A stretch of DNA of 64,000 nt from Oscillospiraceae bacterium. GTDB taxonomy: Bacteria > Bacillota > Clostridia > Oscillospirales > Oscillospiraceae. How positions within the stretch are numbered: position 1 is the stretch's first letter; every line of letters begins with the position of its first letter. A program made the position numbers and the translations under genes. Shown piece after piece: positions 1,567 to 61,600 of the stretch. The notes below the pieces were generated by a model, which searched no databases, was not told the origin of the DNA, and saw only the letters and a list, made by a program, of their open reading frames with translations. The stretch lies in NCBI GenBank assembly GCA_021203045.1, contig JAJQBY010000040.1, positions 1-64,000 on the forward strand, read 5' to 3'.

Positions 1567-1568
1567 AA

Positions 1569-6550: not shown

Positions 6551-6587
6551 TCGGCGCGGGCGCTCCCATCGAAGGCGCCCGCGCCGA
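6551..6587. terminator. GC-rich hairpin downstream of P-II-like gene
   Basis: tcggcgcgggcgc ... gcgcccgcgccga. Confidence 0.7.
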
Positions 6588-6609
6588 TACCGGTCTATAA
6601 AGCCTGTTT

Positions 6610-7296: not shown

Positions 7297-7299
7297 AGC

Positions 7300-8823: not shown

Positions 8824-8913
8824 GATGACCTCCTTCCTTATGCCGCGCCCCACCCTCGGAACGCCCTTGAACATAATTTTTTCTATTGACGTTCAGTTTA
8901 TCATATTAGAAAA

Positions 8914-8952
8914 AATTTGGCAACCGGATTTCCCTCCCCGGCTGCCAAATTT
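8914..8952. terminator. Hairpin between DUF1538 and PAP2 genes
   Basis: aatttggcaaccgg ... ccggctgccaaatt. Confidence 0.6.
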
Positions 8953-8961
8953 CAAGTTTAT

Positions 8962-9810: not shown

Positions 9811-9960
9811 AGCGCACCAGCCCTTCTCTGAATACCTTGAAAAAGCTTATCATGCGCCCTGTAAAGCCCGCTATCAGTTTCCGGTAAAAGGTTTATAAAC
9901 CGGCGGGCAGCGCTCTGCCATCCGCGTCCGGACGACTGACCTCGTCCCCCAAAAAATAAG

Positions 9961-9987
9961 CAGGCGCAGCCGTGGAAGCTGCGCCTG
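9961..9987. terminator. Hairpin terminator of TRAP operon
   Basis: caggcgcagc cgtgga agctgcgcctg. Confidence 0.65.
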
Positions 9988-10004
9988 TGTGAGATCATTT
10001 TATA

Positions 10005-12026
10005 TTACGCCGCGGCGGGAGTCTCCTGCTTTTTGTTGCGCAGGAACTGGAACACGAAGATGGCCACAATGACCACCAGGCCCACCACATCGCTGAGCGT
10101 GCCGGGGTAGATCAGGAACAATCCGCCAGCGGCGGCGACGATGCGCAACGGCCAGGGAACAGAACCCTTCAGGTATCCCTCCAGCGCCACGCCCAGGGAT
10201 ACCATGCCCACGATGGAGGTGATAATCAGCTGGATGACCTCCAAAGCATTCGTATCGATCAGGAGCATGGCCGGGTTAAAGGCGAAGATATATGGCACCA
10301 CAAAGGCCGCAATAGCAAGCTTTGTGGCGTTCACCGCCGTCCTCATTGGCTTCGACCCCGCAATGGCCGAGCCTGCATAGGCCGCCAGAGCCACCGGCGG
10401 CGTGATATCCGCCACGATGCCGAAGTAGAACACGAAGAAATGAGCCGCCAGGGTGGGAACACCCATCTGAATCAGGATAGGTGCGCAGGTGGAGGCCATA
10501 ATGCAGTAGTTGGCAGTGGTGGGAACGCCCATGCCAAGGATGATGCAGCAGATCATGGTCAGCAACAGGGCAACGATCAGATGGCCGTTGGCGATAGTGA
10601 TAACGGCGGTGATGATCTGAGAGGCAAGACCGGTCATGGTGATGCAGCCGGCAATCACACCGGCAATGGCGCAGGCCGCCGCCACTGAGATGCATGACTG
10701 GCCGCCCTTTGCCAGAGCATCGAATAGCACGGCAGGAGTCATGCGGGCATCCTTGTTGAACAGGCTGACCACGATGCAGGCCATAATAGATATGGTAGCG
10801 GCATAGGCCATGGTACGGTTGCCGCTGCATACAAGATAAATCAGTATGACCAGGGGCAGCAGGAGATACAGCTTTTTTGCAAGCATGCGGAACTTCGGCA
10901 GCTGCTCTCTGGGAATGCCCTTCAGTCCCAGGCGCTTTGCCTCCAGATGGACGCAGATGAAGATGCCCAGGAAGTACAGCACCGCCGGCAGGATAGCCCG
11001 GACAATGATGCTGGAATAGGACACGCCCACATACTCTGCCATCAGGAAGGCCGCAGCGCCCATAATGGGAGGCATAATCTGTCCGCCGGTAGAGGCCGCC
11101 GCCTCCACCGCCCCGGCAAACTCCGGCTTATAGCCGGTCTTTTTCATCATGGGGATGGTGACGGAGCCGGTGGTGACGGTGTTGCCCACAGAGGAGCCGG
11201 ACACCATGCCGCACAGGGCGGAGGAGATAACCGCCACCTTGGCGGGACCGCCGCTGGAGGAACCGGCAAGACAGTTAGCAAGACTGATGAAGAAATCAGA
11301 AATGCCCGTGCGCTCCAAAAACGCACCAAATATAAGAAACACCACAATAAACTTGGCGCAAACCTGAATAGGCGTGGTCATAACGCCGGTGGTGGTATAG
11401 GTCAGACGATAGGTGAGCTGGCTGACGGCGTTTCCGAAGCTCAGGCCCTTGCCAATCCAGAAATAATAGATGGCGTAGAGGATAAAGCACCCGGCCACGA
11501 CCATGATGGGAATACCCACACTGCGGCGGCACAGCTCGAACAGGGCCAGGATAGCGATGATGCCCAAGGCGATCTCATACCAATAGAGGTATTTATAGCC
11601 CACAGCCCGGACAGTCAGATCCTTGGCGTTCACCACGATGTACAGGAACGCGCAGGTCCCCAGAATCATAATGATCCAGTCGAACCAGGGAATGTGGTTG
11701 ACCTTCTGCACGCCCTTCTTGGCCGGGAAGTTCAGATAGCCAATGAGCATGATACAGGCCACAAAGGAGGGGTACCGCACCAGATCCAGCCAGGTGGCAA
11801 ACAGCGTCACATAGATGGAAAACAGGGAGAACGCGGCCATCAAGCCGTATACGACCCATTTCTGCCAGCCCTCCCAAATACGGGTGTTGGACTCACGGTC
11901 AAATTTTTTCATGACCGCGTCCACGGCGTCAGCATCGAAGACCGGCTCCTCCGCTGTCGCTGCGGCGGTAGCCTCCGCCGCGGGGGCCGCAGGCTCCTCC
12001 GGCCCTTTCTTTTTGAACAGCGCCAT
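10005..12026 (-). CDS. TRAP transporter fused permease (TAXI-associated)
   Basis: ~673 aa polytopic; SGSSVGNTVTTGSVTIPMMKKTGYKPEFAGAVEAAASTGGQIMPPIMGAAAFLMAEY. Confidence 0.93.
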   Translation of the reverse strand: MALFKKKGPEEPAAPAAEATAAATAEEPVFDADAVDAVMKKFDRESNTRIWEGWQKWVVYGLMAAFSLFSIYVTLFATWLDLVRYPSFVACIMLIGYLNFPAKKGVQKVNHIPWFDWIIMILGTCAFLYIVVNAKDLTVRAVGYKYLYWYEIALGIIAILALFELCRRSVGIPIMVVAGCFILYAIYYFWIGKGLSFGNAVSQLTYRLTYTTTGVMTTPIQVCAKFIVVFLIFGAFLERTGISDFFISLANCLAGSSSGGPAKVAVISSALCGMVSGSSVGNTVTTGSVTIPMMKKTGYKPEFAGAVEAAASTGGQIMPPIMGAAAFLMAEYVGVSYSSIIVRAILPAVLYFLGIFICVHLEAKRLGLKGIPREQLPKFRMLAKKLYLLLPLVILIYLVCSGNRTMAYAATISIMACIVVSLFNKDARMTPAVLFDALAKGGQSCISVAAACAIAGVIAGCITMTGLASQIITAVITIANGHLIVALLLTMICCIILGMGVPTTANYCIMASTCAPILIQMGVPTLAAHFFVFYFGIVADITPPVALAAYAGSAIAGSKPMRTAVNATKLAIAAFVVPYIFAFNPAMLLIDTNALEVIQLIITSIVGMVSLGVALEGYLKGSVPWPLRIVAAAGGLFLIYPGTLSDVVGLVVIVAIFVFQFLRNKKQETPAAA

Positions 12027-41716: not shown

Positions 41717-42916
41717 ATGAAACCAATGAAGCTGACGCCAAAGACGGAGGCCCAGGCCCTCCTGCTGGACGCCTGGACCCTGACGGCGGAGGAGGAGACT
41801 ATCCCCCTGACCGCCTGCCGGGGCCGCGTCCTGGCAAGGAACATATTCGCCCAATATAACATTCCTGTGGTGCGGGCCTCCGCCATGGACGGCGTGGCCG
41901 TGAACGCAGCGGACTTCGCCGATGGCAAAAAGCCGGACTGCACGGGCTGGCGGCCCGGCCGGGAGTATTCCCGGGCCGATACCGGCGATGATTTTGACGA
42001 TCGCTATGACACGGTCATCCCCATCGAGCAGGTGGAGGTCCTGCCGGAGGGCGGTCTGATATTCGCCCCGGACACGGACATCCGCCCCGGCATGAACGTC
42101 AGGCCCTCCGGGTCCCAGGTAGAGAAGGCTTCCCTTCTCTGCAAAAAGGGCGTCCGCCTGACGGCACTGGATATCGCCGCCATCGGCATGGGGGGCTATG
42201 GAGCAGCCCCAGTCCTCCGCCGGCCGAGGGTAGCCTTTGTTCCCACGGGCAGCGAGCTGGTCCCCATAGGAGCGCCTCTCGCCCGGGGCCAGAATTTTGA
42301 CACCAACAGCCTGATGGCCGCCCTCCTGCTGGAGGAGATGGGCGCGAAGCCCATCCTCCGCCCCATCCACCGGGACGACCCGCAGGCCATCGAGCAGACG
42401 CTGAACGAGCTTCTGCCCCAGGCGGATATCATCATCCTGAACGCCGGCACGTCCAAGGGCCAGGAGGATTACTGCGGCCGCCTGTTGTGGGAACGGGGCA
42501 GGCTGCTGTTCAGCGGCGTGGCCGCCGTCCCGGGACGGCCCATGTCCGCCGCGGTCATTGATGAAAAAATGGTTCTGAACATCTCCGGCCCCGCCCTGGC
42601 CGCCTTTTACGCCCTGGACTGGGCCGTGAAGCCCCTGATATGCAAGCATCTGGGCATCCCCGTGCCGAAGCGCCGGACGGCGGAGGCGGAGCTGACCGCC
42701 CCCATGGGCGCGCCGCCCCTATCCATGTGCTGCATGCTCCGGCTCCAGCGCCAGGGGGACAGGCTTCTGGCCACGCCGCTTACCATGCGGGGCCCCGGCA
42801 GTGTGGGTTCCGGCGTCCTCCTGACCGCCGACGCCATGTACGCCACCATCCCCGGCCAGGAGCCGAAGGGCCCCGGCGATACCATCACCGTGGAGCTGCT
42901 GCGGGATATCCCCTGA
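41717..42916 (+). CDS. moeA: MoeA-like molybdopterin molybdotransferase
   Basis: ETIPLTACRGRVLARNIFAQYNIPVVRASAMDGVAV; PTGSELVPIG; NAGTSKGQEDY. Confidence 0.87.
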   Translation: MKPMKLTPKTEAQALLLDAWTLTAEEETIPLTACRGRVLARNIFAQYNIPVVRASAMDGVAVNAADFADGKKPDCTGWRPGREYSRADTGDDFDDRYDTVIPIEQVEVLPEGGLIFAPDTDIRPGMNVRPSGSQVEKASLLCKKGVRLTALDIAAIGMGGYGAAPVLRRPRVAFVPTGSELVPIGAPLARGQNFDTNSLMAALLLEEMGAKPILRPIHRDDPQAIEQTLNELLPQADIIILNAGTSKGQEDYCGRLLWERGRLLFSGVAAVPGRPMSAAVIDEKMVLNISGPALAAFYALDWAVKPLICKHLGIPVPKRRTAEAELTAPMGAPPLSMCCMLRLQRQGDRLLATPLTMRGPGSVGSGVLLTADAMYATIPGQEPKGPGDTITVELLRDIP

Positions 42917-44232: not shown

Positions 44233-44718
44233 TTATCGTCTCTCCCCCACGAGCTTTTCAAGGGCGTTCAGGATGTTTTCATATCCTGTGCAGCGGCAGA
44301 GGTGGCCGGAGATGGCACGGCGCAGCTCCTCGCGAGTATAGGTCCTGCCGGTTCCTATCAGTTCTACGGCGGTCATAATCAGACCCGGGGTGCAGAAGCC
44401 GCACTGCACGGCGGCCTCGTCCACAAATGCCTGCTGGACAGGATGCAGCTGTCCTGTAGCGGGGCCCCGCAGGCCCTCCACGGTCAGGATGCTCTTTCCA
44501 TCGGCCCAGACCGCCAGATAAATGCAGCTGTTATAGGCCCGCCCATCCACCAGCACACAGCAGGCGCCGCACTCCCCCACCTCGCAGCCGGTCTTGACGC
44601 TTGTAAGTCCAAACTCCTCCCGGAGAAGCTCCGTCAGACTCATGCGCACATCAACGCTGCATGTCCGTTCCCGGCCATTGAGGGTGAACGTGATCGTCTT
44701 AAACTCCATGGATAACAC
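44233..44718 (-). CDS. Xanthine dehydrogenase-type [2Fe-2S] small subunit
   Basis: GCEVGECGACCVLVDGR; CGFCTPGLIMTA; GHLCRCTGYENI. Confidence 0.95.
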   Translation of the reverse strand: MLSMEFKTITFTLNGRERTCSVDVRMSLTELLREEFGLTSVKTGCEVGECGACCVLVDGRAYNSCIYLAVWADGKSILTVEGLRGPATGQLHPVQQAFVDEAAVQCGFCTPGLIMTAVELIGTGRTYTREELRRAISGHLCRCTGYENILNALEKLVGERR

Positions 44719-45589
44719 CTCCCGCCCGCTCTACGCTTTTGAACAGGCAGCGCCGCAGCAGTTCCTGAGCCAGATAGCTCCTAAACTCCGCCTTGGCCCG
44801 CCAGCTCGTCCGGGGATGAACGTCCTCCCCGACCGCCCGGGCCATTTGCTCTATCGTCTCCGGGCAGACGGGCTGTCCCCGCCCCGCCGCCTCCGCCGCC
44901 GGGGCCCGCATCGGCACCGGCCCGGCCACGCCATAGGCGATGCGCACATCCTGAAGCACCTGCTTGTCGGCTGTCAGGCAGACGTTCACGCTGCATCCCA
45001 GGGTGGCGATGTCCATGGCGTTCCGCATGGCATATTTGATATACCAGCCGGCATAGCCCTCATAGGCCGCTTGCGGTATGGTCACGGCGGTCAATATCTC
45101 CCCCGGGCGGATATCCACCTGCCCGGCCCGGATATACCACCGGGCGGCGGGGACGTGCCGCACGCCCTCCGGCCCGGTCAGCTCCATTACACCGTCCCAG
45201 GCCAGCAGGGTGGCCCCTGTATCGGCGGAGGTAACGCCGTTGCAGACATTGCCCCCGATGGTACCGATATTCCGCACCTGAGGGCCACCCACCTGCCCCG
45301 CCGCATAGCCCAGAACAGGGACATGCCGCTTAATCAGCTCATTTTCCGATACATCTGTGAAGCTGGTCAGCGCTCCGATGCGGAGGGTGCCGTCCTCCGC
45401 CATGGAAACGCCCCGCAGCTCGTCTACGGTGTAAATACTTATCAGCTCGCACCCGGCCAGCTTTCCATCCCGCAGCTTGACAAGCTGATCGGAACCGCCG
45501 GCTATGATCTTTGCCTTCGGATGTGCCTGACGGAGCTTCACAGCCTCCGCAACTGAATACGCCTCATACAAGGCCGAAAAGTCAAACAT
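44699..45589 (-). CDS. Xanthine dehydrogenase-type FAD-binding subunit
   Basis: KAKIIAGGSDQLVKLRDGK; IGTIGGNVCNGVTSADTGATLLA; start trimmed to MFDFSALYEAYS. Confidence 0.94.
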   Translation of the reverse strand: MFDFSALYEAYSVAEAVKLRQAHPKAKIIAGGSDQLVKLRDGKLAGCELISIYTVDELRGVSMAEDGTLRIGALTSFTDVSENELIKRHVPVLGYAAGQVGGPQVRNIGTIGGNVCNGVTSADTGATLLAWDGVMELTGPEGVRHVPAARWYIRAGQVDIRPGEILTAVTIPQAAYEGYAGWYIKYAMRNAMDIATLGCSVNVCLTADKQVLQDVRIAYGVAGPVPMRAPAAEAAGRGQPVCPETIEQMARAVGEDVHPRTSWRAKAEFRSYLAQELLRRCLFKSVERAGGVIHGV

Positions 45590-47867
45590 GGATAAGCCCC
45601 TCCTCCTGAAGTCGCTCAAAGAGCACATGAGGCGTCATAGGCAGATGGTCTATCTCCACTCCGGTGGCCTGCAATATTGCATTGCGGATGGCCGGCGCAG
45701 GAGATACGGCGGGAGGCTCTCCCAGGGCCTTGGTACCAAAGGGGCTGGTAGGCTCCGGATTTTCCACGAACAGCGCCCCCAGGTCGGGATGATCCATGGC
45801 AGTAGAGATCTTGTAGTCCAAAAGATTATTGTTCAGAGGGCGGCCGGTCTTTTCATCGAATTTCAGCTCCTCTCCCATGGCGTAACCGATGGACATGCTC
45901 ATGCCCCCGTGCACCTGGGCCTGGGCAAGCTGTGGATTGATGAGCGTGCCGCAGTCGTGGACATTCACGATATTCAAAACCCTCACCTTACAAAGGGGAA
46001 TATCCACCTCCACCTCCGCAAAGGAGCAACCGAAGGAATAGGCGTTGGACTTGACCTGGGTGGTATCCTCCGCCGTAATATAAGCGGCCCGTTCCATGCT
46101 GTAGGTGGCCTCCGTCGCCAGAGCCTCCAGGGTCATGATCGTCTCCCCATGGGAGACGATATTGCCGTCTCGCAAATCCAGCTCCTCCGCCGGAAGCTTT
46201 GTGAGCCAGGAGGCATAGGCCAGTATCTTTTCCCGGAACTGACGGCCCACGTTCGTAATGGCAAAGCCCTCCACATAGGTCTGGCGGGAGGCATAGGCCC
46301 CGGTGCCGTAGCCAGTCACATCCGTATCCTGGCAGGTGACAACGTGTACCTTTTCCACTGGCACGCCCACCACCTGGGCTACCATCTGGGTATAAGCGGT
46401 ATCCGCGCCCTGGCCGATCTCCGTCTCGGCGCACATATACTGCACCGAGCCGTCCTGATTGAGCATCATCCGGCTGGTGGTAGCCTCCAGGGATATGGGC
46501 CAGACGGCGGTGTTATACCAGAATATAGCCATCCCAACCCCCCGGCGCACCGGGCCGGACTGATTCTGGTAGGCCTTGTATTTCTCCTGCCAGCCGATAT
46601 ATTCCATACCCTTTTCCATGCACTGACCGTGGCTGTCCTGCCAGTTCACATTGCCGGTAAAAGCGTCCCGATATCCCACAGGCATCCGGTTTTTATTCCG
46701 CAGCTCAATGGGACTCATGCCGAGCATCTTCGCTATATCGTCCACATGGCTCTCCATGGCGAAGGAGACCTGGGGCATTCCATAGGCTCGCATGGCCCCG
46801 GCGGTGGGGGTATTGGTATAGACAGAATAGGCATCAAAATGATAGGCCTCGCAGGGATACATCTGCACAAAGCCATTGGTGGCCTTGGCCGCCGTGGAAT
46901 GACCGTGAGACGTATAGGCCCCCTGCTGGGAGTATTCCTCCATCCGGCGGGCCACAAAGGTCCCATCCCGGCGGAAGTATGTAACAAGATGGAATTTCCC
47001 TCCGTGACGCACCCGGTTATTCACAAAGGTCTCCTCCCGGGATACATCCAGCTTGACCGGACGGCCGTCGGTCAGCGTGGCAAGGTAGGCACACAGCGGC
47101 TCATACAGAGCGTCCTGCTTGTTGCCGAAGCCTCCGCCGATATAGGGCTTTATGACCCGTATCTCTCCCCAGGGGCGTCCCAGGGCCTGGCCCACGCAGC
47201 GGCGGACGATATGGGGGATCTGCGTGGAGGACAATATGGCTATCTTCCGTCCCTCTGTCCAGGCGCAGCAGATATGATTTTCTATGTGACAGTGCTGAAC
47301 GATGGGGGTCTCATACCATTTATCCACACACAACAGCCCCGGCTCGGCTATGGCCTTGTCCCAATCCCCGGCGCTGCCGGAGGTATGCTTCAGGATGTTG
47401 TTGGGATACTCCGGATGGAGCAGGGGCGCCCCCTCCTTGACGGCCTCCAGGGGATCGAGAACGAAAGGATAGGTCTCATACTCCGCCTTTATCAGCCGCA
47501 GGGCCCGCTTTGCGGCGATCTCATCCTCCGCAATGACGGCGGCCACGTCATCCCCGTAATACAGGGGCCGGTCTGTCAGCAGCAGCCGGTCGGCCACGTC
47601 CTGATGAGCCGGGTCAGTGCTCCAGGGGTGACCTGCGGTGGGAAAATAATACTTGGGCACGTCAAAGCATGTGACGATACGCACCACGCCGGGGACCTTC
47701 AGTGCCTCGCTGATGTCCAGTGAAAGTACTCTGCCGTTGGCCACAGTGGAGCGGAACACCTTTGCCACCAGGGCATCCCGGCTTATCAGATCTGCCGTAT
47801 ACTTGGCCCGGCCCATGGCCTTGTCCGGGCCGTCCACACGCTTCATGCTGACGCCTACTGCCTCCAT
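45582..47867 (-). CDS. Xanthine dehydrogenase-type molybdopterin-binding subunit
   Basis: KRVDGPDKAMGRAKYTADL; KPYIGGGFGNKQDA; AMRAYGMPQVSFAMESHVD; AETEIGQGADT; LGEPPAVSPAPAI. Confidence 0.95.
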   Translation of the reverse strand: MEAVGVSMKRVDGPDKAMGRAKYTADLISRDALVAKVFRSTVANGRVLSLDISEALKVPGVVRIVTCFDVPKYYFPTAGHPWSTDPAHQDVADRLLLTDRPLYYGDDVAAVIAEDEIAAKRALRLIKAEYETYPFVLDPLEAVKEGAPLLHPEYPNNILKHTSGSAGDWDKAIAEPGLLCVDKWYETPIVQHCHIENHICCAWTEGRKIAILSSTQIPHIVRRCVGQALGRPWGEIRVIKPYIGGGFGNKQDALYEPLCAYLATLTDGRPVKLDVSREETFVNNRVRHGGKFHLVTYFRRDGTFVARRMEEYSQQGAYTSHGHSTAAKATNGFVQMYPCEAYHFDAYSVYTNTPTAGAMRAYGMPQVSFAMESHVDDIAKMLGMSPIELRNKNRMPVGYRDAFTGNVNWQDSHGQCMEKGMEYIGWQEKYKAYQNQSGPVRRGVGMAIFWYNTAVWPISLEATTSRMMLNQDGSVQYMCAETEIGQGADTAYTQMVAQVVGVPVEKVHVVTCQDTDVTGYGTGAYASRQTYVEGFAITNVGRQFREKILAYASWLTKLPAEELDLRDGNIVSHGETIMTLEALATEATYSMERAAYITAEDTTQVKSNAYSFGCSFAEVEVDIPLCKVRVLNIVNVHDCGTLINPQLAQAQVHGGMSMSIGYAMGEELKFDEKTGRPLNNNLLDYKISTAMDHPDLGALFVENPEPTSPFGTKALGEPPAVSPAPAIRNAILQATGVEIDHLPMTPHVLFERLQEEGLIHV

Positions 47868-47926
47868 TCTATCCCCCGCCTTTCCTGAATATATTCTCTG
47901 CAGCCCGGTTTCACCGGGCATTCTGC

Positions 47927-49186
47927 CTATTCGCCTGCTACGTATTTTTCCTTGACCATGCAGCTATCACCCAAATAGATGAGCTTTTCAAACCGGGCCT
48001 CCATAGGCTCTCCCCCTTGGCAACTGACAGAATCATCCACCACCACCGCGTCGAACTCGTATCCAGGCTGGAAGGAGCCTACCTTTCCGAAGAAGGAACC
48101 GCCGCCCTCTGTAGCCATATAAAACGCCTCCTGGGCCGTGAGATAGGCCGGGTGGCTCTCGTCCAGCTGCCACAGAGCGCGGGAAACGCCGATGGTCTGA
48201 CGTATAACCTCCGCCATATCCAGGGTATGACCGCCGGATATATCGGAACCAAGGCAGGTATGCAGGCCCATATCCAAATATTTTCGCATGGGGGCTATGC
48301 CGCTGCGGACATTGGTGTTCGAGGTGGGACAGTGAACGACATACGCCCCCCGCTCCCGCATCAGTGCACATTCCTCATCGGTCATATAAATGCAGTGGGC
48401 CATCAGGGTGTTCGGGCCGAGAAGTCCGTTTTCATCGTATACCGCGGCATAGCTGGGACTATCCGGATGGAGCTGATGCACCCATTCGATCTCGTCCCGG
48501 TTCTCGTCCAAATGGCTCTGCAACGGCAGGCCAGTCTCTCCGGCCAGCTCTCCCAGCCCCTGCAAAAGCGCCGGAGAGCAGCTGGGAACAAACCGAGGCG
48601 TCAGGATAGGCTGAGTGCGCCGGAAGTGCTTTTCCTTTACCTGGGCCAGCCAGTCCCTGGTCTCCGCCAAGGAATAATCTGCGTCCCGCTCCCGGATGGA
48701 GTCGGGGGCATTGCTGTCCATATTCACCCGGCCCACAAAGGTTTTCAGGCCGGAGCGCTCCAGCTCCTCCATAAGCAGCACGGTGGCTTCTGTATGGGCA
48801 GTGGAAAATATGGCGGCGCGGGTGGTGAAGCTGCCGGCCAGCTCTGCCACCAATGCACCGTACACCTTTTTCGCAAAATCCAGATCCCGGAACATGGACT
48901 CCTCCGGATAGGTCAGCTCCTCCAGCCACTGAATGAGCTGCATATCCATTCCCCGGCCAAGATTCCTGTACTGTCCTGCATGGAGGTGCATATCACAGTA
49001 TCCGGGTATGGTGATAAAATCCCGGCAGTCGTTCAGCCTTATGCCGTTGAATTTGTCCGGCAGCCGTTCAAATATGCCTTCGCACAGGCCGTTTTCGTTG
49101 CAGACAGCAAAGCTGTTGGGCCGCAGGCACAGCCTTTCCGGCCCCTCCGTATATATAAAATTGCCCCATATGGCAAATGGTTCCAT
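47927..49186 (-). CDS. guaD: Guanine deaminase-like amidohydrolase
   Basis: GYCDMHLHAGQYRNLGRGMDMQLIQWLEELTYPEESMFRD; LQSHLDENRDEIEWV; GSDISGGHTLDMAEVIRQTI. Confidence 0.85.
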   Translation of the reverse strand: MEPFAIWGNFIYTEGPERLCLRPNSFAVCNENGLCEGIFERLPDKFNGIRLNDCRDFITIPGYCDMHLHAGQYRNLGRGMDMQLIQWLEELTYPEESMFRDLDFAKKVYGALVAELAGSFTTRAAIFSTAHTEATVLLMEELERSGLKTFVGRVNMDSNAPDSIRERDADYSLAETRDWLAQVKEKHFRRTQPILTPRFVPSCSPALLQGLGELAGETGLPLQSHLDENRDEIEWVHQLHPDSPSYAAVYDENGLLGPNTLMAHCIYMTDEECALMRERGAYVVHCPTSNTNVRSGIAPMRKYLDMGLHTCLGSDISGGHTLDMAEVIRQTIGVSRALWQLDESHPAYLTAQEAFYMATEGGGSFFGKVGSFQPGYEFDAVVVDDSVSCQGGEPMEARFEKLIYLGDSCMVKEKYVAGE

Positions 49187-49370
49187 AGTCTTGCTCCTTC
49201 TTATATGCTGCGATTGAATAACAAGCTCTCCTATATCGTCATTATAACACATTCCGTCTCCCAGGGACAGAGTATTTGGCTAATTTTTTGGCAGGGAGGG
49301 TTGTTTTCCTCCGCCGGTTTTATTATAATAGAGAAAAATGCCAACACTATTTTAACGAGGAGTACATCCT

Positions 49371-51532: not shown

Positions 51533-52759
51533 ATGGAGCATTTACACGGCCCCGATAAGGTCAAAGACAAAAGCAGCCTGTTCAAATGCATTGTGATCGT
51601 GGCGGCCGCCTGTCTCGTTCACGGTGTTATGCAGGGCGTACATAACAACTACGGGATTATGCTGAACGGCCTGCTGGAGTCCACCGGAATCGACTACGCA
51701 TCCATCAGCTTCTGTATAGGCGTGGGCGCCCTGGTCTATGGCTTTGCACAGCCATTTCTCGGTATGCTAGCATTGAAAAGATCAAACGTATTCGTTATCC
51801 TGTTAGGTATCCTTTTTATGGTAATTGGCCTTATCGCGACACCTTTATGCAGAAATTTTTTCAGTCTTCTTTTGTTTTTCGGCCTTATCTTGCCATTCGG
51901 AACCACAGGCTTGTGTTTCGGGATCGTTATGGGCGCGATCACCCCTGTAATTGGAGAAAAAAGAGCTGCCGCCGTTTCCGGCATCATCCAGGCAAGCGCC
52001 GGCGTCGGCGACGCCCTGATGTCTCCCGGACTGCAAACACTTATCGCAGAGCTCGGCATTCAATCAGCCATGTGGCTGCTCGTGATTCCCTTTCTTCTCA
52101 TGATCCCCATAATCCTGTGGCTCGGCAGGACCAATAAAAGGACCGCCGTTACAAAGGAAAAAACAGAGCCGCAGGTATCTTTGATCGCTATACTTCGAAG
52201 CGCCCTGGGGGTCAAAGACTACCGGCTGCTTGTCATAAGCTTTGCCACCTGCGGGTTTAATATGTCTATTATAGAAAACCATCTTTTCTCTCAGTTTCTC
52301 GCCTATGGGATATCCGGCAGCGCCGCCTCGCTGGCGCTGACTGTATATGGGATCGCAACCATGATCGGCGCCGCCGGGGCAGGCTTTCTCGGTGTAAAAT
52401 TTCCCATGAAAAATGTTCTCGGAAGTGTCTATGCAGTCCGTGTTCTGATCTCCCTGGGGTTTATTTTCCTCCCGAAATCAGCGGCATTTGCATTCATCGC
52501 GACAGCGCTTCTGGGATTAAGCGGAGATTCAACCGTCCCACCTACGTCCGGTATCATCAGCAAAAAATTCGGAGCGAAAAAAATGGCCGTCTTATATGGG
52601 TTTACACTAATCGGACACCAAATCGGGGCCTTTACAAGCTCCTACCTCGGCGGTGTATTCGTGGAACACGGTCTTGGATACACGCCGCTGTGGATCATTA
52701 ATATGTGCCTAGCCGCTATCGCAGCTGCGGCAAGCTTTTCCATCCAGCAGGAGAAATAA
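51533..52759 (+). CDS. MFS transporter (oxalate/formate antiporter-like)
   Basis: 408 aa polytopic; GIMLNGLLESTGIDYASISFCIGVGALVYGFAQPFLGMLALK. Confidence 0.82.
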   Translation: MEHLHGPDKVKDKSSLFKCIVIVAAACLVHGVMQGVHNNYGIMLNGLLESTGIDYASISFCIGVGALVYGFAQPFLGMLALKRSNVFVILLGILFMVIGLIATPLCRNFFSLLLFFGLILPFGTTGLCFGIVMGAITPVIGEKRAAAVSGIIQASAGVGDALMSPGLQTLIAELGIQSAMWLLVIPFLLMIPIILWLGRTNKRTAVTKEKTEPQVSLIAILRSALGVKDYRLLVISFATCGFNMSIIENHLFSQFLAYGISGSAASLALTVYGIATMIGAAGAGFLGVKFPMKNVLGSVYAVRVLISLGFIFLPKSAAFAFIATALLGLSGDSTVPPTSGIISKKFGAKKMAVLYGFTLIGHQIGAFTSSYLGGVFVEHGLGYTPLWIINMCLAAIAAAASFSIQQEK

Positions 52760-52907: not shown

Positions 52908-53353
52908 TCGGTCTGTCAAAAAAGCACCCCCTCTACCGCCAAGGAAGTGGTAAACTAGAAGGACAGGGGTGTAATACATGGAGGACAGGAAAAAGGATGC
53001 GCGGCGGGAAGTCGTGATGATAATACAGATACACTAGTACCTCAAGACCATCTGCTGCGAAAGGTGAAGAAGGTTATGGATTACGAATGGCTGGATGAAC
53101 AGCTGAAGCCATATTATAACCACGAGGTCGGCCGCCATGGAACAGACCCGGTCGTGCTCATCAAAATGGTACTAATCCAACACCTGTACGAAATACCCGC
53201 CCTTCGACAAATTTGCTTCCATGAACCTAAAAAAACTGGCAATCTGGAGCTGGAACCGCTCCTTTTTGCCTGTTTCTTACTGCTTTTTCTCTTTTTCACC
53301 CTCTTGCATCTGTTCTTGTCTTACTTAATAGCGCTTTCTTTGACAGACTGAGC
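52908..53353 (+). mobile_element. Internally deleted IS1182-like element with imperfect terminal inverted repeats
   Basis: Left end gtctgtcaaa-aaagc (52911) vs right end gctttctttgacagac (inverted); inside MEDRKKDARREVVMIIQI [frameshift] DTLVPQDHLLRKVKKVMDYEWLDEQLKPYYNHEVGRHGTDPVVLIKMVLIQHLYEIPALRQ then C-terminal-like MNLKKLAIWSWN. Confidence 0.75.
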
Positions 53354-54909: not shown

Positions 54910-54929
54910 TAATGTTTATAATATATAAA

Positions 54930-54965
54930 GAGGCTGTACCAACACACGTTGATACAGCCTCTTTC
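54930..54965. terminator. Terminator between XRE and Fe-S subunit genes
   Basis: aaagaggctgta ... tacagcctcttt. Confidence 0.8.
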
Positions 54966-54982: not shown

Positions 54983-55855
54983 TTATTCCGCCTTTTCCAG
55001 ATAGGTGATTCCTACATAGTGGTCATGGTCGGTGCGCTCGCCCTCGTAGCGAACGGGCTTGAATCCGGGGTAGGTGATCTCCACCGTCCAGGTCTTTTCC
55101 TTGGGGAGATCCTCAAACTCATAGTCACCGGCCCAGTTTGTCTCCATCTCGTGGCTCTCGCCGGTCTCGGTGCAGGTGATTTTTACCTTCGCGCTGATGC
55201 AGACCTCCTCCAGCTCCTTGGGATAGGCCACCGTACCGGCCAGGAAGGCGCTGGGGATGTTCAGATGCACCACACTGGAGCCCATATTGCCCAGCGCCTC
55301 AAGCTGCGTCACCTTGTTTGCAGCGATCAGCTTGGAAATTTCGCTGTCCGGGTCGGCCAGGTCGCCGAATACCAGGGCCTGATTGGGGCAGGCCTCCACG
55401 CAGCGGGGTTCAAAGCCGGGATAATCCGGGTCGTCCAGCAGCTCGGCGCACATGGTGCATTTCTGGGGCAGGTTCAGCTCCTCGTTCCAATACACCGCAT
55501 GGATGGGGCAGGCGTCCACGATCTGCTTCTGGCCCACGGCCTTCTCCGGGTCGATGATGACGATACCGTCTGGCCGCTTATATGCGGCTCCGTCCTTGGC
55601 TGCCGCCACGCAGGCGGGGTTATCGCAATGGGAACAGGGAGTTGGAACGGTGGCGGTCTTGACCCGGCGCGTGTTGTCGCCTCTCTCCCATTCCACAATG
55701 TTCATCCAATACTGGCCCAGCTCCGGCTGGGATTTCGTCAGGGCGCTGTCCCAGCCGCAATGCTCGTCCTTGCAGGCCATAAAGCAGGCGTAGCAGGCCA
55801 TGCAACGGGCAGAATTGATGGCTATGCCGGGCTTTTTCATCGGTTTCTTCAGCAT
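54983..55855 (-). CDS. [4Fe-4S] electron-transfer subunit with C-terminal transthyretin/Cna-B-like domain (AthS-like)
   Basis: CMACYACFMACKDEHC, CSHCDNPACV, CTMCAELLDDPDYPGFEPRCVEACP; C-terminal ITCTETGESHEMETNWAGDYEFEDLPKEKTWTVEITYPGFKP. Confidence 0.88.
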   Translation of the reverse strand: MLKKPMKKPGIAINSARCMACYACFMACKDEHCGWDSALTKSQPELGQYWMNIVEWERGDNTRRVKTATVPTPCSHCDNPACVAAAKDGAAYKRPDGIVIIDPEKAVGQKQIVDACPIHAVYWNEELNLPQKCTMCAELLDDPDYPGFEPRCVEACPNQALVFGDLADPDSEISKLIAANKVTQLEALGNMGSSVVHLNIPSAFLAGTVAYPKELEEVCISAKVKITCTETGESHEMETNWAGDYEFEDLPKEKTWTVEITYPGFKPVRYEGERTDHDHYVGITYLEKAE

Positions 55856-55856
55856 C

Positions 55857-58595
55857 TTACACAGCCTCCTTTTTCAATATCTGTTCTCTCTCGCCCCAGA
55901 GAAGATCCGCCTCGGCAGAGGTGCGGATGGGACGGGCGGTCTCCAACTGCTGCTTATCCACTGCGTCCAGGATATGCTCGAAGCCCTGGCCGTAGTTGGG
56001 ATCGGGATCGCATTTTTCAATGTCGATATTGCAGCTGTAAGGGGCCATGGCGGGCACATAGTCGCCGATAAGGCGACCAGGAGTCAGGACGTTTATGCTG
56101 CCGCCCTTATCCCAGCTCATGTATTCGCCATAATTGATGGGGTTATAGATGCCGGAGGAGGTATAGGCGTGGATGGTCTCCGGGTTGAGCCGATAGGTGA
56201 CGCGGGCTACGCAAAGCACGCTGCCACGGTCGTTGAACAGGCGCACCACGTCGCCGTCCTTGATGCCCTTCTGCTCCGCCACCTTGGGGTTGATATGGCA
56301 GACCAGGTAGGGGTTGCCGTTTATGATGACGCGGTTTTTAGGTATCTCCCACAGCCACTTGGCGTGCTGGTTATAGTGGGTGTGGTAGTCAAAGCGGGGA
56401 TGGGGGGAGATAAGGCCGCAGGGGAACTTATCCGCCGACAGGGACTTGTGGCCCTCCCAGGAGTCCTGGTACTGGGGGATGGGGCGGCGGGCCTCATCGT
56501 CGGGCGCCCAGTAGGTAAGGGACTCGGACACAAACTCGAATTTGCCGGAGAAGGTACCCAGCTTGCCCTCCTCCTGGAACACCTTGTGGTTCATGGTGTC
56601 GCAGGGACGGTTCTCCGCGAACCACTGGAAGCCGGGGTAACGATCCCAATTTTCGATCAGGCCGGTCTCCGGGTCCACATTCTCCTCCTTATAGGAGACG
56701 GGCGGGATATAGTAGCCCTTCTTTTTGAAGTCCTCCCAGGAGATGTGCTTGGGCAGGTCGGAGAACTGCCAGAAGCGCTTGGCCCATTCCTCCTCCGTCC
56801 GGCCCTCGGTGAAGCGCTCGCCCCAGCCGAGGCGGGCCGCCACCTGGGAGAATATCCAGAAGTCGGAGCGGGAATCCCACAGGGGTTCAATGGCCTTGTC
56901 CTGATAGACGATGACCTGCCAGGAGTTGCCGGTCTGGGAGTGGGAGCAGTAGCCGCCGTTACCGGAGTTGCCCACCTCGCCGATGTCTATCCGCTCCAGG
57001 TTGGAGCAGGCAGGCAGGATCACGTCCGCATGACGGGTTTCCGGGGTCATAAAGATGTCCTGGTTTATCACAAACTCCAGCTCCGGGCTTTTATACATCT
57101 TGGCCCATTTGTTGGTGTCCAGCATAGTACCGAAGAAGGAACCGCCGTAGCGCCAGAAGCAGTGAACCTTGTTATAGCCGGGGGCGGGGTATACATGGCG
57201 GGTAAATTCCTGATCCACGCCGCCGCCGCAGAAGCCCTCCCCGTACCACTCATAATGGCCGTCCAGAATGGCGTCCGGCAGATTGGGGCGGTACAGCACC
57301 TGCTCCACGGAGTTTACGGGCACGTCGTCGCAGATGGGCGCACCGGCGATGGAGGACAGGGGGTCGGAATAGCCGCCAAACCAGAAGTTATAGTTCATGG
57401 GGCCGCCGCAGGCGGGAGACCAGAAGGCGCGGCCCGGCTTGCCCATGCCCTGCATGGCGAACAGCAGGGTCATCAGACGGGCGTACTCCGTGCCGTTGGA
57501 GTGGCGGCACGCACCGCCGAATCCACCGCGCATACCCGAACCGCCGGTGGTGACGGTGCTGGCCCAGCGCCGGGCGATGGCCTTGATGTCCATGGCAGGA
57601 ACCAGGGACAGCTCCTCCGCCCAGCGGGGGGTCTTGGGGGTGCCGTCCGGGCCGAGGCCCAGGATATGATCCTCAAACTCCTTGAAGCGGTGGCCGTGCT
57701 GCTTTACGTATTCCTTATCGTATGTCCCCTCCGTAATCCACACGTAGGCAATGGCCTCCAGGATAGCGGAGTCCGTGCCCATGCGGGGGCCGATCCATTT
57801 GTCGGCGTGCTTGACGGAGGTATAGTTGTTGAAGGGGTCGATATAGATAAACTCGATACCCATCTCCTTCATCCACCAGCGCCACAGGGCGGATTCCTGG
57901 GCGGAATAGCCGCCGCGGCTGGTGTCCGGGTCAGTGGACCAGCAGATGATGGTCTCGGCGTTCTGCATGGCCATTTCCAGCATATCATAGGGTTCCGGGC
58001 CGCCCAAACGCCAGTAATAACCGTAGGAATGGGGCGTGCCCCAGTGGAAGCCCTCCCAGGAGTCCGGGTTATCCGCGATGCGGGTGTAGCCCATCATGGA
58101 GAAAAACCGCTTGAACAGGGAAATCTTATAGCCCACCAGACCCCAGCTATGGTGGGAGGAGGTGCAGGCGGTGATGGTCTCCTTGCCATAGGTCTTTTGC
58201 AGACGCTTGATTTCCCGGGTCACCAGGCTCAAAGCCTCATCCCAGGAGGCGCGGCGGTAGCCGGATTTGCCCCGGTTTTCCGTGTTGCGGTTCTTGCCGT
58301 CCGGGGTCTCCACAAAGTCCTCCCGGATCATGGGGTATTTCAGCCTGTCATAGGCGTAGGTCTTATCCCTCTCGCAATAGCCCAGCAGGGACATGGTAGT
58401 CTTGCGCTGGGGGGTATACTGCTTGCCGCGGGCCTTGATGACCCAGCCCGCGGGGTCGTCGTCCGTCAGGACGATGGGACGAACACGGCGGATAACGCCG
58501 TTATAGGTATGCAGGGTCATGGGGCCGCCCACGCATACGCTGTGGGTAATGCGCTCGTCCTTGCTGACGGAACGCATGGAAACTTTCTCAGCCAT
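55857..58595 (-). CDS. Molybdopterin oxidoreductase of the pyrogallol-phloroglucinol transhydrogenase / catechol dehydroxylase type
   Basis: 912 aa; SSHHSWG and NPDSWEG (His148, Asp178, Ser179); no N-terminal CxxCxxxC Fe-S motif; no Tat signal; paired with AthS-like subunit. Confidence 0.85.
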   Translation of the reverse strand: MAEKVSMRSVSKDERITHSVCVGGPMTLHTYNGVIRRVRPIVLTDDDPAGWVIKARGKQYTPQRKTTMSLLGYCERDKTYAYDRLKYPMIREDFVETPDGKNRNTENRGKSGYRRASWDEALSLVTREIKRLQKTYGKETITACTSSHHSWGLVGYKISLFKRFFSMMGYTRIADNPDSWEGFHWGTPHSYGYYWRLGGPEPYDMLEMAMQNAETIICWSTDPDTSRGGYSAQESALWRWWMKEMGIEFIYIDPFNNYTSVKHADKWIGPRMGTDSAILEAIAYVWITEGTYDKEYVKQHGHRFKEFEDHILGLGPDGTPKTPRWAEELSLVPAMDIKAIARRWASTVTTGGSGMRGGFGGACRHSNGTEYARLMTLLFAMQGMGKPGRAFWSPACGGPMNYNFWFGGYSDPLSSIAGAPICDDVPVNSVEQVLYRPNLPDAILDGHYEWYGEGFCGGGVDQEFTRHVYPAPGYNKVHCFWRYGGSFFGTMLDTNKWAKMYKSPELEFVINQDIFMTPETRHADVILPACSNLERIDIGEVGNSGNGGYCSHSQTGNSWQVIVYQDKAIEPLWDSRSDFWIFSQVAARLGWGERFTEGRTEEEWAKRFWQFSDLPKHISWEDFKKKGYYIPPVSYKEENVDPETGLIENWDRYPGFQWFAENRPCDTMNHKVFQEEGKLGTFSGKFEFVSESLTYWAPDDEARRPIPQYQDSWEGHKSLSADKFPCGLISPHPRFDYHTHYNQHAKWLWEIPKNRVIINGNPYLVCHINPKVAEQKGIKDGDVVRLFNDRGSVLCVARVTYRLNPETIHAYTSSGIYNPINYGEYMSWDKGGSINVLTPGRLIGDYVPAMAPYSCNIDIEKCDPDPNYGQGFEHILDAVDKQQLETARPIRTSAEADLLWGEREQILKKEAV

Positions 58596-58610
58596 TCACA
58601 TCTATCCTCC

Positions 58611-59132
58611 TTACTTTACTTCTACCATCTGGCGGGCATACTCGGAGCGGGGGTCAATCTCCACCATCGTTCCGACATACTTGCCGTCCTTGCGCTCAAA
58701 GCAGCGCATATCAAAATCCTCAATAACGGGTATCCAGAAGACCCGTCCGTCCGGCCCCTGATAGTGCTTGCCCATATGGAATTGGTGCTGCAGCATTTCC
58801 ACCGCGCCGCCGGGAGCGTCTGCCCGCTTCTGGGCCTCGGCATAATGCAGGTTCAGGAAGCTGGGGTTCACCACGCCGTAGCGCTCCCAGCGCATAGGTC
58901 CGATGTCCTGCCAGTCCTCCGGCATGGAGCGGATGGCCTCGATGATGCACTCGTACACGTCCGTGGGGGGCATACCGCAGCCCTCAAAGTTTTCATACCA
59001 GACCCGGAAGGCGTTGATATGCTCGCTGGGATGGTCTTTGACTGCCTCCTTCACCTTGGCGAAAAGCTCCTCCTTCGTCATGGTGACAAGGCCCTCCGGC
59101 AGATGCAGAATATATTTTTTAGTAAGCTCCAT
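58611..59132 (-). CDS. Uncharacterised operon protein, 173 aa
   Basis: SD gaggagagggag before ATG; 15 nt upstream of molybdoenzyme start. Confidence 0.75.
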   Translation of the reverse strand: MELTKKYILHLPEGLVTMTKEELFAKVKEAVKDHPSEHINAFRVWYENFEGCGMPPTDVYECIIEAIRSMPEDWQDIGPMRWERYGVVNPSFLNLHYAEAQKRADAPGGAVEMLQHQFHMGKHYQGPDGRVFWIPVIEDFDMRCFERKDGKYVGTMVEIDPRSEYARQMVEVK

Positions 59133-59144
59133 ATCTCCCTCTCC

Positions 59145-59444
59145 TCATCGAATCACGTTGTTCCCGACCAGGTCGCCGATTTCGCCAGTCGGGCCGCTCT
59201 GGCGCTGGTCGTCATAGCCGTAGCTCCAGTCCACGGCCAGATCGTAGGACGTTACAAGCTTTGCCTCGCCAAGAAGCACCCCGGTGCCGTAAAACTCGTC
59301 CCGGAAATTCTTCTCCGCCAGGGCCTTTGCTTCCTCCTCGCTGGCCGCGATAACCGTGGTCTGGGCCGGAGGGCAGAACAGGTAGTCCGGCTCGGTGGGC
59401 TTTTCACGCTGGGTCTTCGCCGCCTCATAGATATATTTTTTCAT
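59145..59444 (-). CDS. Uncharacterised operon protein, ~99 aa
   Basis: MKKYIYEAAKTQREKPTEPDYLFCPPAQTTVIAASEEEAKALAEK; tightly packed in operon. Confidence 0.7.
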   Translation of the reverse strand: MKKYIYEAAKTQREKPTEPDYLFCPPAQTTVIAASEEEAKALAEKNFRDEFYGTGVLLGEAKLVTSYDLAVDWSYGYDDQRQSGPTGEIGDLVGNNVIR

Positions 59445-59458
59445 GTCCCTCGCCCCTC

Positions 59459-59923
59459 TCAATACATTCTCACGTCGGGGATGACGCGGCCGTTAATCCA
59501 TGGGTCGTACTTCGCCATGAAGTTCTTGTCGTCCCCGTCAAAATCGTACTTTCCAAGCTCCGAGGGATGCACCCAGCACATCTCGGTATAGATGTCGCTC
59601 TTCGGCTGGGTCTGCCAGGTGTTCACGGCCTCGTAATAGTTGTGGTAGTCGCATCTGGTGTTGGTGTTGTGGGTGATGTTGCCGTTGAGGATATGCTCGG
59701 AATAGCCGTCCTGGGGGCGCTTGTGGCCCACCATGGTGCATTTGCCCACGCTCACCTTGATACCCAGGGTCTCCCACGCAATGCGCTGGCAGGCCTCCTG
59801 CGCGGTCTCATTGGTGCGCTGGCGGCCTGTGGGGAACGTCCAGGTTCCCTCCGGGGTCTTCCCGATAAGCACCCGGCCCATAGGCCCAGCGATGTTTTGA
59901 ATCAGCACTGATATGTAATTCAT
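59459..59923 (-). CDS. Nudix-fold protein with degenerate Nudix box
   Basis: GRQRTNETAQEACQRIAWETLGI aligns to GX5EX7REUXEEXGU but two Glu are replaced (I and T). Confidence 0.75.
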   Translation of the reverse strand: MNYISVLIQNIAGPMGRVLIGKTPEGTWTFPTGRQRTNETAQEACQRIAWETLGIKVSVGKCTMVGHKRPQDGYSEHILNGNITHNTNTRCDYHNYYEAVNTWQTQPKSDIYTEMCWVHPSELGKYDFDGDDKNFMAKYDPWINGRVIPDVRMY

Positions 59924-59936
59924 AAGCTCTCCCCCC

Positions 59937-60134
59937 TTACAGCGTGTACTGGCCGGGGGCCGGGGTATAGCCCTGGGTCTCCAGCTCCTGAGCGACCCTC
60001 TCCCGGAACTGGCGTACCGTCTCCATGTGGACGTCCCGGTCGATGCGACAGACCTCCTGACCGTCCTCCATGGCCACCGCCCACTCGGTAAAGCCCTGCC
60101 GGGTGCTCCGGCAGTAAAAGCGGTATGTTTTCAT
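59937..60134 (-). CDS. Uncharacterised small operon protein, 65 aa
   Basis: MKTYRFYCRSTRQGFTEWAVAMEDGQEVCRIDRDVHMETVRQFRERVAQELETQGYTPAPGQYTL; 4-nt ATGA overlap with upstream gene. Confidence 0.65.
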   Translation of the reverse strand: MKTYRFYCRSTRQGFTEWAVAMEDGQEVCRIDRDVHMETVRQFRERVAQELETQGYTPAPGQYTL

Positions 60135-60559
60135 TCGTGTTCCTCCTTGTCTTGCTCCTCATATGGGGCCATAAAATCCGTGTCCTCCGCCGGAAGCGTC
60201 CCCAGCATATCCATCAGGCGGATGATGCCGGTCTCCGCCGCCACCATGACACCCATCATGTCCATATGGGGTTTAAATTTTATCTCAAAAAGATAATCCG
60301 CCGCCGCCGGAAGATTTTTCAGCATGGCCGTGTTGCGCTCGTTTATCTCCCAGTCCTTATGTCGGCCCTCCTCCGCGTCCATCTTGTGAATGAAGCACTG
60401 ATACCGGCCTCCATAAAGAAAGGTATACATGATTTCCATGCCGGAAACGACGGCCACCATGTTTCCCGCCTGGATGGAGTTCATCAGCTTGTCCCCCTCC
60501 TTACCCAGGGGGCCGATCTCCACATCGTTGTCGTGTTCCCGTGCTCTTGTCTCTGCCAT
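60131..60559 (-). CDS. Uncharacterised operon protein, 142 aa, first gene
   Basis: SD ggaggtga upstream of ATG; overlaps next gene. Confidence 0.75.
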   Translation of the reverse strand: MAETRAREHDNDVEIGPLGKEGDKLMNSIQAGNMVAVVSGMEIMYTFLYGGRYQCFIHKMDAEEGRHKDWEINERNTAMLKNLPAAADYLFEIKFKPHMDMMGVMVAAETGIIRLMDMLGTLPAEDTDFMAPYEEQDKEEHE

Positions 60560-60607: not shown

Positions 60608-60715
60608 AGTCAATCTTAATATACACTTTACAAATTCCGCTGTCAATGGTAATATAGAAAATATTTTTTCCATTATAAACATCTTTTATCATTGTTCAAC
60701 CCGGAGGGTATCTTC

Positions 60716-61600
60716 ATGGACATCACACAGCTTCGTTACTTCATTTCCGTGGCCCAAACCCTGAATTTCACAGAGGCCGCCCGGCGTTCCGGGGTGACAC
60801 AGCCGCTGATAAGCCACCACATCGTCGAGCTGGAAAAACAGCTGGGAGGCAAGCTGTTTCTGCGTAGCCGCCACCAGGTCACGCTGACCGACGCGGGACG
60901 GCGGTTTCTCCCGGCGGCGATGGAGATCGTGGAGCTGGCGGATAAAGCCGTCTTTCAGCTTCATCAGGACCAGCAGGGCAAATCCGGCCACTTGGCCATC
61001 ACCAGCCTGACCACCTCCAGCGCGGTGCTGGCAGAGGCGCTGGCCGCCTTCGCCGCAAAGTATCCCGATATCACCGTGGATATCGACGTGACCCCCGGCC
61101 CAAAGCAGAGTCTTGCCATGAACGACAATAAATACGACTTCCATTTTGCAGCCCTGGAAATGGTCCCCGTGGGCGAGACCTATGATTATGTGGTCACACA
61201 CAGCGACAGCCTGTGCGTGGTGTTTCCCACAAACCATCCTCTGGCAAGCCAGCCCCTGGACTTTGCGGCGCTGAAGGACGAGCGGTTCATCTCCACCGCC
61301 CCATCCGACAGCCCCGCCATGTATGACCGGGTGCGAGAGGTCTGCCAGGCCAGAGGGTATATTCCCAATGTGGTCTATCAGTATGACCGGGTGGAGGCGG
61401 TAGTCCTATCTGTGGGCGCAGGGCTTGGCATCTCCATCCTGCCGGAGGCCCTCAGCCGGGTATTCTATGCCGAAAACGTCACCTTCAAGCGCATCCCCGG
61501 CGAGGACAGCGTCCGCCCCTATGTGGTCGCCTGGCAGAAAAACCTGACGAACCCCGCCGCCGCTCTGTTCGTAGAGACCGTGCGGGAGCTGTTCGGGTAA
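60716..61600 (+). CDS. LysR-family transcriptional regulator
   Basis: MDITQLRYFISVAQTLNFTEAARRSGVTQPLISHHIVELEKQLGGKLFLRSRHQVTLTDAG. Confidence 0.96.
   Translation: MDITQLRYFISVAQTLNFTEAARRSGVTQPLISHHIVELEKQLGGKLFLRSRHQVTLTDAGRRFLPAAMEIVELADKAVFQLHQDQQGKSGHLAITSLTTSSAVLAEALAAFAAKYPDITVDIDVTPGPKQSLAMNDNKYDFHFAALEMVPVGETYDYVVTHSDSLCVVFPTNHPLASQPLDFAALKDERFISTAPSDSPAMYDRVREVCQARGYIPNVVYQYDRVEAVVLSVGAGLGISILPEALSRVFYAENVTFKRIPGEDSVRPYVVAWQKNLTNPAAALFVETVRELFG

Follow-up and report, generated by a model that had tools for sequence, protein, structure and literature searches.

A seven-gene operon of gut Clostridia joins a pyrogallol transhydroxylase-family molybdoenzyme to a conserved cassette of five small genes

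The pyrogallol:phloroglucinol transhydroxylase AthL/AthS transfers hydroxyl groups between polyhydroxybenzenes in a net redox-neutral reaction and, to our knowledge, its biochemistry comes almost wholly from one enzyme, that of Pelobacter acidigallici. Here we describe a related operon at positions 54983-60559 of the Oscillospiraceae bacterium contig JAJQBY010000040.1, of which the first 64,000 nucleotides were analysed (hereafter the window). It comprises seven open reading frames (ORFs) on the minus strand which form one unit: five small genes (a, b, nud, c and d) followed by an AthL-type large subunit and an AthS-type small subunit, as an earlier note on this DNA had proposed. Two further systems bear on its interpretation. 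A Clostridium scatologenes cluster consisting of PGR-DPGC-TfD-TAL, a thiolase and a CoA-transferase degrades phloroglucinol (PMC10470551), and, in a published phylogeny (PMC7028382), the catechol dehydroxylases of gut bacteria lie close to acetylene hydratase and apart from pyrogallol hydroxytransferase.

The large subunit (912 aa; 55857-58595), a predicted bis-molybdopterin guanine dinucleotide (bis-MGD) molybdoenzyme, contains Pfam domains PF00384, PF01568 and PF21423, the last being the AhtL-like domain annotated as "pyrogallol hydroxytransferase large subunit-like, domain 1". Against PDB sequences it scores 694 bits with the Pelobacter transhydroxylase (4v4c), 215 with DMSO reductase and 39 with acetylene hydratase. 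A Pfam scan returned no N-terminal Fe4S4 domain (PF04879), and the N-terminal sequence shows no twin-arginine, in agreement with the earlier note, which had reported neither N-terminal [4Fe-4S] cysteines nor a Tat signal. For comparison of individual residues, the 4v4c chain was rebuilt from the PDB alignment and then aligned with the homologues found. His148, Asp178 and Ser179 of the window protein align with AthL His144, Asp174 and Ser175, a correspondence that the earlier note had proposed, and Tyr409 completes the set by aligning with Tyr404; in AthL these four are active-site residues, with the serine as the molybdenum ligand. Together with Tyr152, Trp176, Phe468 and Tyr560 (AthL numbering), they are kept in 22 of 22 sequences of the subclade to which the window enzyme belongs, here termed AthL1. 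AthL1 also has 88 clade-fixed differences, a clade-specific C-terminal extension (approximately residues 866-912) and an insertion (635-644), the latter two being absent from the other AthLs compared. The small subunit (290 aa; 54983-55855) carries 12 cluster cysteines in three [4Fe-4S] motifs (18,21,24,28 / 74,77,82,116 / 133,136,152,156), matches AthS in the PDB at 2e-42, and ends in a transthyretin-like CarboxypepD_reg domain (PF13620), so that the AthS-like terminus described earlier is also found by Pfam. On these sequence comparisons, both subunits belong to the AthL/AthS family.

Phylogenetic reconstruction recovered AthL1 as a clade of 22 rows with 100/100 support, its sister being an AthL from another genus that is not accompanied by the small genes (G136:C1). 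The wider AthL1 assemblage also takes in the Pelobacter AthL, that of a clostridial genome (G554) and further AthLs of the same bacterial family; the 28 rows of the Tyr404 type are joined by a branch of only 88/81 support. A second clade, AthL2 (12 rows; 100/100), is without Tyr404, Tyr152, Trp147 and Tyr560 and probably catalyses a different reaction, judging from these residues. The genome from which the window derives carries one AthL1 pair and one AthL2 pair, the latter at L015 (G000:C104), 6565-10084. The earlier note had described the enzyme as both pyrogallol-transhydroxylase-like and catechol-dehydroxylase-like. The first half of that description agrees with the domain content, scores, conserved residues and tree, which places the large subunit with AthL and not in an unrelated molybdoenzyme clade. 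The second half is not supported: a catechol dehydroxylase identity was rejected on the 694 bits for AthL versus 39 for acetylene hydratase, the retention of AthL residues and the published phylogeny, the enzyme being set apart from the dehydroxylases by bit scores and that phylogeny rather than by a tree of our own with dehydroxylases (PMC7028382).

The operon is compact. Gene a (142 aa; 60131-60559) overlaps gene b (65 aa; 59937-60134) by 4 nt, and these are followed by nud (154 aa; 59459-59923), gene c (99 aa; 59145-59444), gene d (173 aa; 58611-59132) and the two subunit genes, with gaps, counted from the small subunit upstream, of 1, 15, 12, 14 and 13 nt. The gap range of 0-15 nt given earlier stands as 1-15 nt, except at the overlapping a/b junction, and a purine-rich stretch resembling a Shine-Dalgarno site precedes each of the seven starts, as had likewise been noted. 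The start of gene c was set at 59444, the methionine of MKKY used by most relatives, whereas the mechanical ORF list gives 105 aa. On the same strand, a promoter-like site (TTGACA-N17-TATATT; 60618-60646) lies 58 nt upstream of gene a with an 11/12 consensus match only, and a hairpin resembling an intrinsic terminator (54927-54964), with a 17-bp stem and a T-rich tail, directly follows the small subunit. As putative signals identified by consensus, the two together bound exactly the seven genes. A LysR-type gene (plus strand; 60716-61600), divergent from the operon, encodes 294 aa from an ATG common to relatives, or 302 aa from an alternative upstream TTG at 60692; its linkage to the cassette operon recurs in the closest species and in a second genus (G136), and its product is likely the regulator of the operon.

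The five-gene cassette is conserved well beyond this genome. Within a genus sample of 35 species, gene d was identified in 9, all of which possess the same operon apart from contig ends, and a scan of GTDB r220 (one genome per species) yielded 28 further or overlapping loci, all from Clostridia metagenome-assembled genomes (MAGs) whose titles, where a source is given, correspond to gut samples of sheep, yak, buffalo, red deer, roe deer, mouse and chicken. The order a-b-nud-c-d-AthL-AthS is kept in 20 of the 20 GTDB loci with enough sequence, the other 8 being cut by contig ends, and an identical seven-gene order with LysR occurs in another genus (G136:C7); the linkage that the earlier note had proposed as a check is thus conserved. 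Gene d is found only directly before an AthL of the AthL1 subclade: it occurs once in a class sample of 394 genomes, in the window's own genome, and is absent from genomes possessing only other AthL types (G243, G263 and G554). Genes b and c, like d, were found only with AthL1, and gene a in the order sample was restricted to the AthL1 cassette clade except for one homologue in G243. Overall, only a single AthL subclade carries the cassette. Mean column identities are 82% for d, 78% for b, 76% for nud, 60% for a and 56% for c, the fastest evolving of the five. Because homologues outside the nearest relatives share 38-78% identity and substitutions are concentrated at third codon positions, the five small ORFs are, by these sequence criteria, genuine genes.

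A sheep jejunum MAG labelled Lachnospiraceae (RGIG5918) carries two copies of the gene d-AthL-AthS unit (L102 and L104), reflecting either duplication, horizontal transfer or a binning error. Further, comparison of the window at 55857-60559 with locus L084 gives a third-position divergence of 29% in the large subunit and about 40-57% in the neighbouring small genes, a difference that may be due to codon constraint from high expression, or to local recombination.

Four of the five small proteins represent novel families. The earlier note had not recognised any of the five genes; no member of families a, b, c or d has a convincing Pfam match beyond stray sub-threshold hits, the window proteins a-d match no NCBIfam model, a PDB profile search with gene d returned no match, and profile comparisons of d with Nudix and of c with b indicated no relation. 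AlphaFold models of d (predicted local distance difference test, pLDDT, of 66) and a (pLDDT 77) gave no Foldseek match at E <= 0.001; the best matches of a were to sliding clamps with a template modelling score of about 0.2, and were dismissed as meaningless. The fifth protein, Nud, has a Nudix fold (PF00293, 4.6e-8; PDB profile match, 1.8e-9) with a degenerate Nudix box. The intact motif GX5EX7REUXEEXGU was not recovered: in an alignment of 23 homologues the segment REUXEEXGU reads R-I/V/A-x-x-E-Q/T-x-G, such that only the central Glu of REUXEE is kept. Because two of the three metal-binding catalytic glutamates are replaced, hydrolysis by Nud is doubtful and the protein has probably lost catalysis. 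The G243 homologue of gene a (40% identity; L168 (G243:C60), 7568-9277) is solitary: its genome has no gene d, and the next gene downstream encodes a thiolase that shares 65% identity with the pathway thiolase described below. Since it adjoins a thiolase of this type, gene a appears tied to the pathway more widely, which is a warning against viewing the cassette purely as an AthL chaperone.

Genomic context connects AthL1 with genes for the degradation of phloroglucinol-type rings. In 9 GTDB loci a thiolase and a gene of the BKACE family (TAL-like; beta-keto-acid cleavage) directly follow AthS. MoeA/MoaA genes lie downstream in 6 loci, 6 have an AthL2 large subunit ahead of the cassette, CtfAB occurs in 2, and ModABC adjoins the operon in the red deer locus. 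A related genus (G263) encodes AthL-AthS-thiolase-SDR-(MerR)-cyclase-HCDH-BKACE contiguously, where SDR denotes a short-chain dehydrogenase/reductase and HCDH a 3-hydroxyacyl-type dehydrogenase. In G554, whose AthL is 55% identical to that of Pelobacter, the order is CtfAB-cupin-SDR-HCDH-thiolase-BKACE-cyclase-permease-AthL-AthS-LysR; the C. scatologenes counterpart of this gene set is the one shown to degrade phloroglucinol (PMC10470551). BKACE is present in 9 of 9 operon-bearing species versus 1 of 26 others of the genus (naive p ~1e-7, inflated by relatedness), and a matching cyclase of ~300 aa in 7 of 9; cyclase matches elsewhere in the genus were of other kinds or weaker. Among 300 genomes of the order, PF21423 was detected in 4, three of which, including that of the window, are the only carriers of a near-orthologous cyclase (at least 74%). 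The window's genome itself encodes MerR-cyclase-HCDH-CtfAB (C110), MarR-SDR-HCDH-BKACE (C133) and thiolase-BKACE (C87), and hence, at the level of protein class only, DPGC (PF04199), TfD (3HCDH), TAL (BKACE), a thiolase and a CoA-transferase (CoA_trans). The genome also has a UbiD decarboxylase of the VdcC type, partnered by a UbiX-like flavoprotein (L163 (G000:C36), 1174-3194); from its family, this UbiD is a plausible candidate for a gallate or phenolic acid decarboxylase that could supply pyrogallol.

Taking these findings together, we propose, with a probability of roughly 0.6, that the operon encodes a transhydroxylase which converts pyrogallol to phloroglucinol, supplies ring cleavage of the phloroglucinol type and is accompanied by an accessory cassette specific to its subclade. 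The cytoplasmic enzyme would most likely turn pyrogallol, derived from gallate and tannins, into phloroglucinol: the hydroxyl group would be transferred at a molybdenum centre of the bis-MGD type with Ser179 as ligand, and His148, Asp178 and Tyr409 would carry out the acid-base chemistry. Phloroglucinol would then enter the route encoded elsewhere in the genome through an SDR reductase, a cyclase-family ring hydrolase, a 3-hydroxyacyl-type dehydrogenase, BKACE, a thiolase and a CoA-transferase, from which we infer a flux onward to acetyl-CoA and butyrate. Because the net reaction would be redox-neutral, no membrane anchor would be needed and, in place of the soluble electron donor suggested by the earlier note, a donor may not be needed at all. 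The five small proteins would constitute a dedicated soluble cassette that evolved with the AthL1 subclade; most likely they would assemble with or mature AthLS, docking on its extra C-terminal tail and perhaps its insertion, or else handle a co-substrate.

A number of observations weigh against this proposal. Identity to the characterised AthL is low (about 42% to the solved Pelobacter enzyme), and three AthL pocket positions are changed in AthL1 (Cys557 to Ser, Arg153 to Lys and Trp354 to Phe). The pathway genes sit on other contigs than the operon, and no clear orthologue of the phloroglucinol reductase 5g4k, whose PDB label is generic, was found among the SDRs of the window's genome; the C133 SDR matches 5g4k at ~1e-23, but matches other SDRs better. 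Six of the nine genomes that carry the operon are near-identical across it, so that the co-occurrence counts lack independence, and UbiD occurs in only 3 of the 9. The modelled structures of a and d, having no structural match, offer nothing positive on how the cassette might work. Finally, the TAL substrate position, a Trp (Trp16) in C. scatologenes TAL and a Glu in lysine-pathway Kce (PMC10470551), reads by eye as Gly (C87) and Val (C133) in the window's genome, while the G554 BKACE homologue has the Trp. From these divergences, the route may be a divergent version of phloroglucinol degradation or may serve a related ring.

The latter would accord with a transhydroxylase of the same mechanism acting on another polyhydroxybenzene, such as hydroxyhydroquinone, 1,2,3,5-tetrahydroxybenzene or a ring bearing substituents, for instance gallate or the B-ring of a flavonoid, with the linked ring-cleavage genes tuned to its product. 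The separation of AthL1 as its own strongly supported clade apart from the Pelobacter AthL, its 88 fixed differences and substituted pocket, TAL-like proteins without the Trp, and a cyclase sharing only 26% identity with its counterpart in the canonical-type G554 cluster all lean this way; however, all catalytic residues considered are unchanged and the linked genes belong to precisely the classes that make up the phloroglucinol route, and we regard another substrate as rather unlikely. Far less probable still is a reductive dehydroxylase, similar to the catechol dehydroxylases, in which the iron-sulfur subunit passes electrons from a soluble donor. A subunit with three clusters would suit such a role, and for some Gordonibacter dehydroxylases, too, a soluble enzyme with a small 4Fe-4S partner is predicted (PMC7028382). 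Against this, the clade of the dehydroxylases is a different one, close to acetylene hydratase and away from AthL (PMC7028382); the window enzyme scores 39 bits to acetylene hydratase and 694 to AthL, and keeps the AthL residues.

With regard to the small proteins, it is quite possible, if short of an even chance, that they make up an enzyme or sensor module of their own within the same pathway, sharing the operon without partnering AthLS. The lone G243 homologue of gene a ahead of a pathway-type thiolase, and the occurrence of other AthL genes in clusters without the cassette, are compatible with such a module; the restriction of b, c and d to AthL1, the strict gene order, and the clade-specific tail and insertion of AthL1 instead speak for a partnership with AthLS. 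There is virtually no likelihood that the small ORFs are artefacts or stand beside AthLS by accident: although four are without a database match, nothing was found in support of this view, and it is refuted by an order kept in every complete locus and across genera, and by third-position-biased substitution. At the other extreme, and somewhat doubtfully, the five proteins and AthLS might together constitute a new multi-component molybdoenzyme, in which four new families and a non-catalytic Nudix scaffold alter what AthL can do. In such a complex the small proteins would, for example, make or channel a tetrahydroxybenzene co-substrate or let AthL act on a different ring; the hosts would be uncultured gut Clostridia that ferment tannins.

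Other features of the contig were also noted. The window contains MoeA (41717-42916, plus strand) and a second molybdenum system, made up of xanthine dehydrogenase XdhA and the accompanying FAD subunit (44699-47921, minus strand), which adjoins an amidohydrolase gene (47927-49252, minus strand). A few kb beyond the window end, L014 (G000:C102) encodes at 7235-9400 a bis-MGD enzyme of 721 aa with an N-terminal Fe4S4 domain (PF04879), adjoining a 653-aa gene resembling an Old Yellow Enzyme-type reductase. Part of a major facilitator superfamily transporter gene in the window (51533-52759) is 82% identical to a stretch ~22 kb further on (L014, 14327-14554), which suggests a duplicated and decayed copy. 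A short ORF at 53064-53351, resembling the start of a transposase and having no Pfam match, is probably an insertion-sequence remnant.

AthL1 is a distinct and very conserved subclade distributed across uncultured Clostridia from the guts of animals that include ruminants, mice and chickens. Its operon puts names to genes with which anaerobes of the gut may turn tannin-derived pyrogallol into short-chain fatty acids by fermentation, with relevance to rumen methane, tannin tolerance and polyphenol nutrition, and ties four new protein families to one defined reaction, rendering their function testable.

Relative to known systems, the operon is ordinary in mechanism class and unusual in composition: the enzyme is of a rarely seen kind, its subclade is new, and the accompanying cassette looks obligate. 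With the Pelobacter AthL/AthS (PDB 4v4c-4v4e) it shares two subunits, the AhtL-like domain 1, the His/Asp/Ser/Tyr residues, a three-cluster iron-sulfur subunit and a transthyretin-like domain, while differing in its ~42% identity, C557S, R153K and W354F, the extra C-terminal tail and the 10-residue insertion. It is also preceded by the five small genes, which are absent at the loci of the other AthLs examined, a set that leaves out Pelobacter's own neighbourhood. Nud resembles MutT-type Nudix hydrolases in fold (PF00293), unlike them having two catalytic glutamates replaced. The same enzyme classes as in the C. scatologenes phloroglucinol cluster are encoded in the window's genome and, in relatives, directly after AthS; unlike that cluster, the genes of the window's genome are spread over three loci with 26-45% identity to the canonical-type G554 cluster, a different TAL residue and an uncertain PGR orthologue (PMC10470551). 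The gut catechol dehydroxylases Dadh, Hcdh, Cadh, Dodh and Cldh are alike in employing bis-MGD on polyphenol rings in gut anaerobes, some being predicted soluble with a small iron-sulfur partner, and unlike the window enzyme in forming a separate clade near acetylene hydratase and catalysing a net reductive reaction (PMC7028382).

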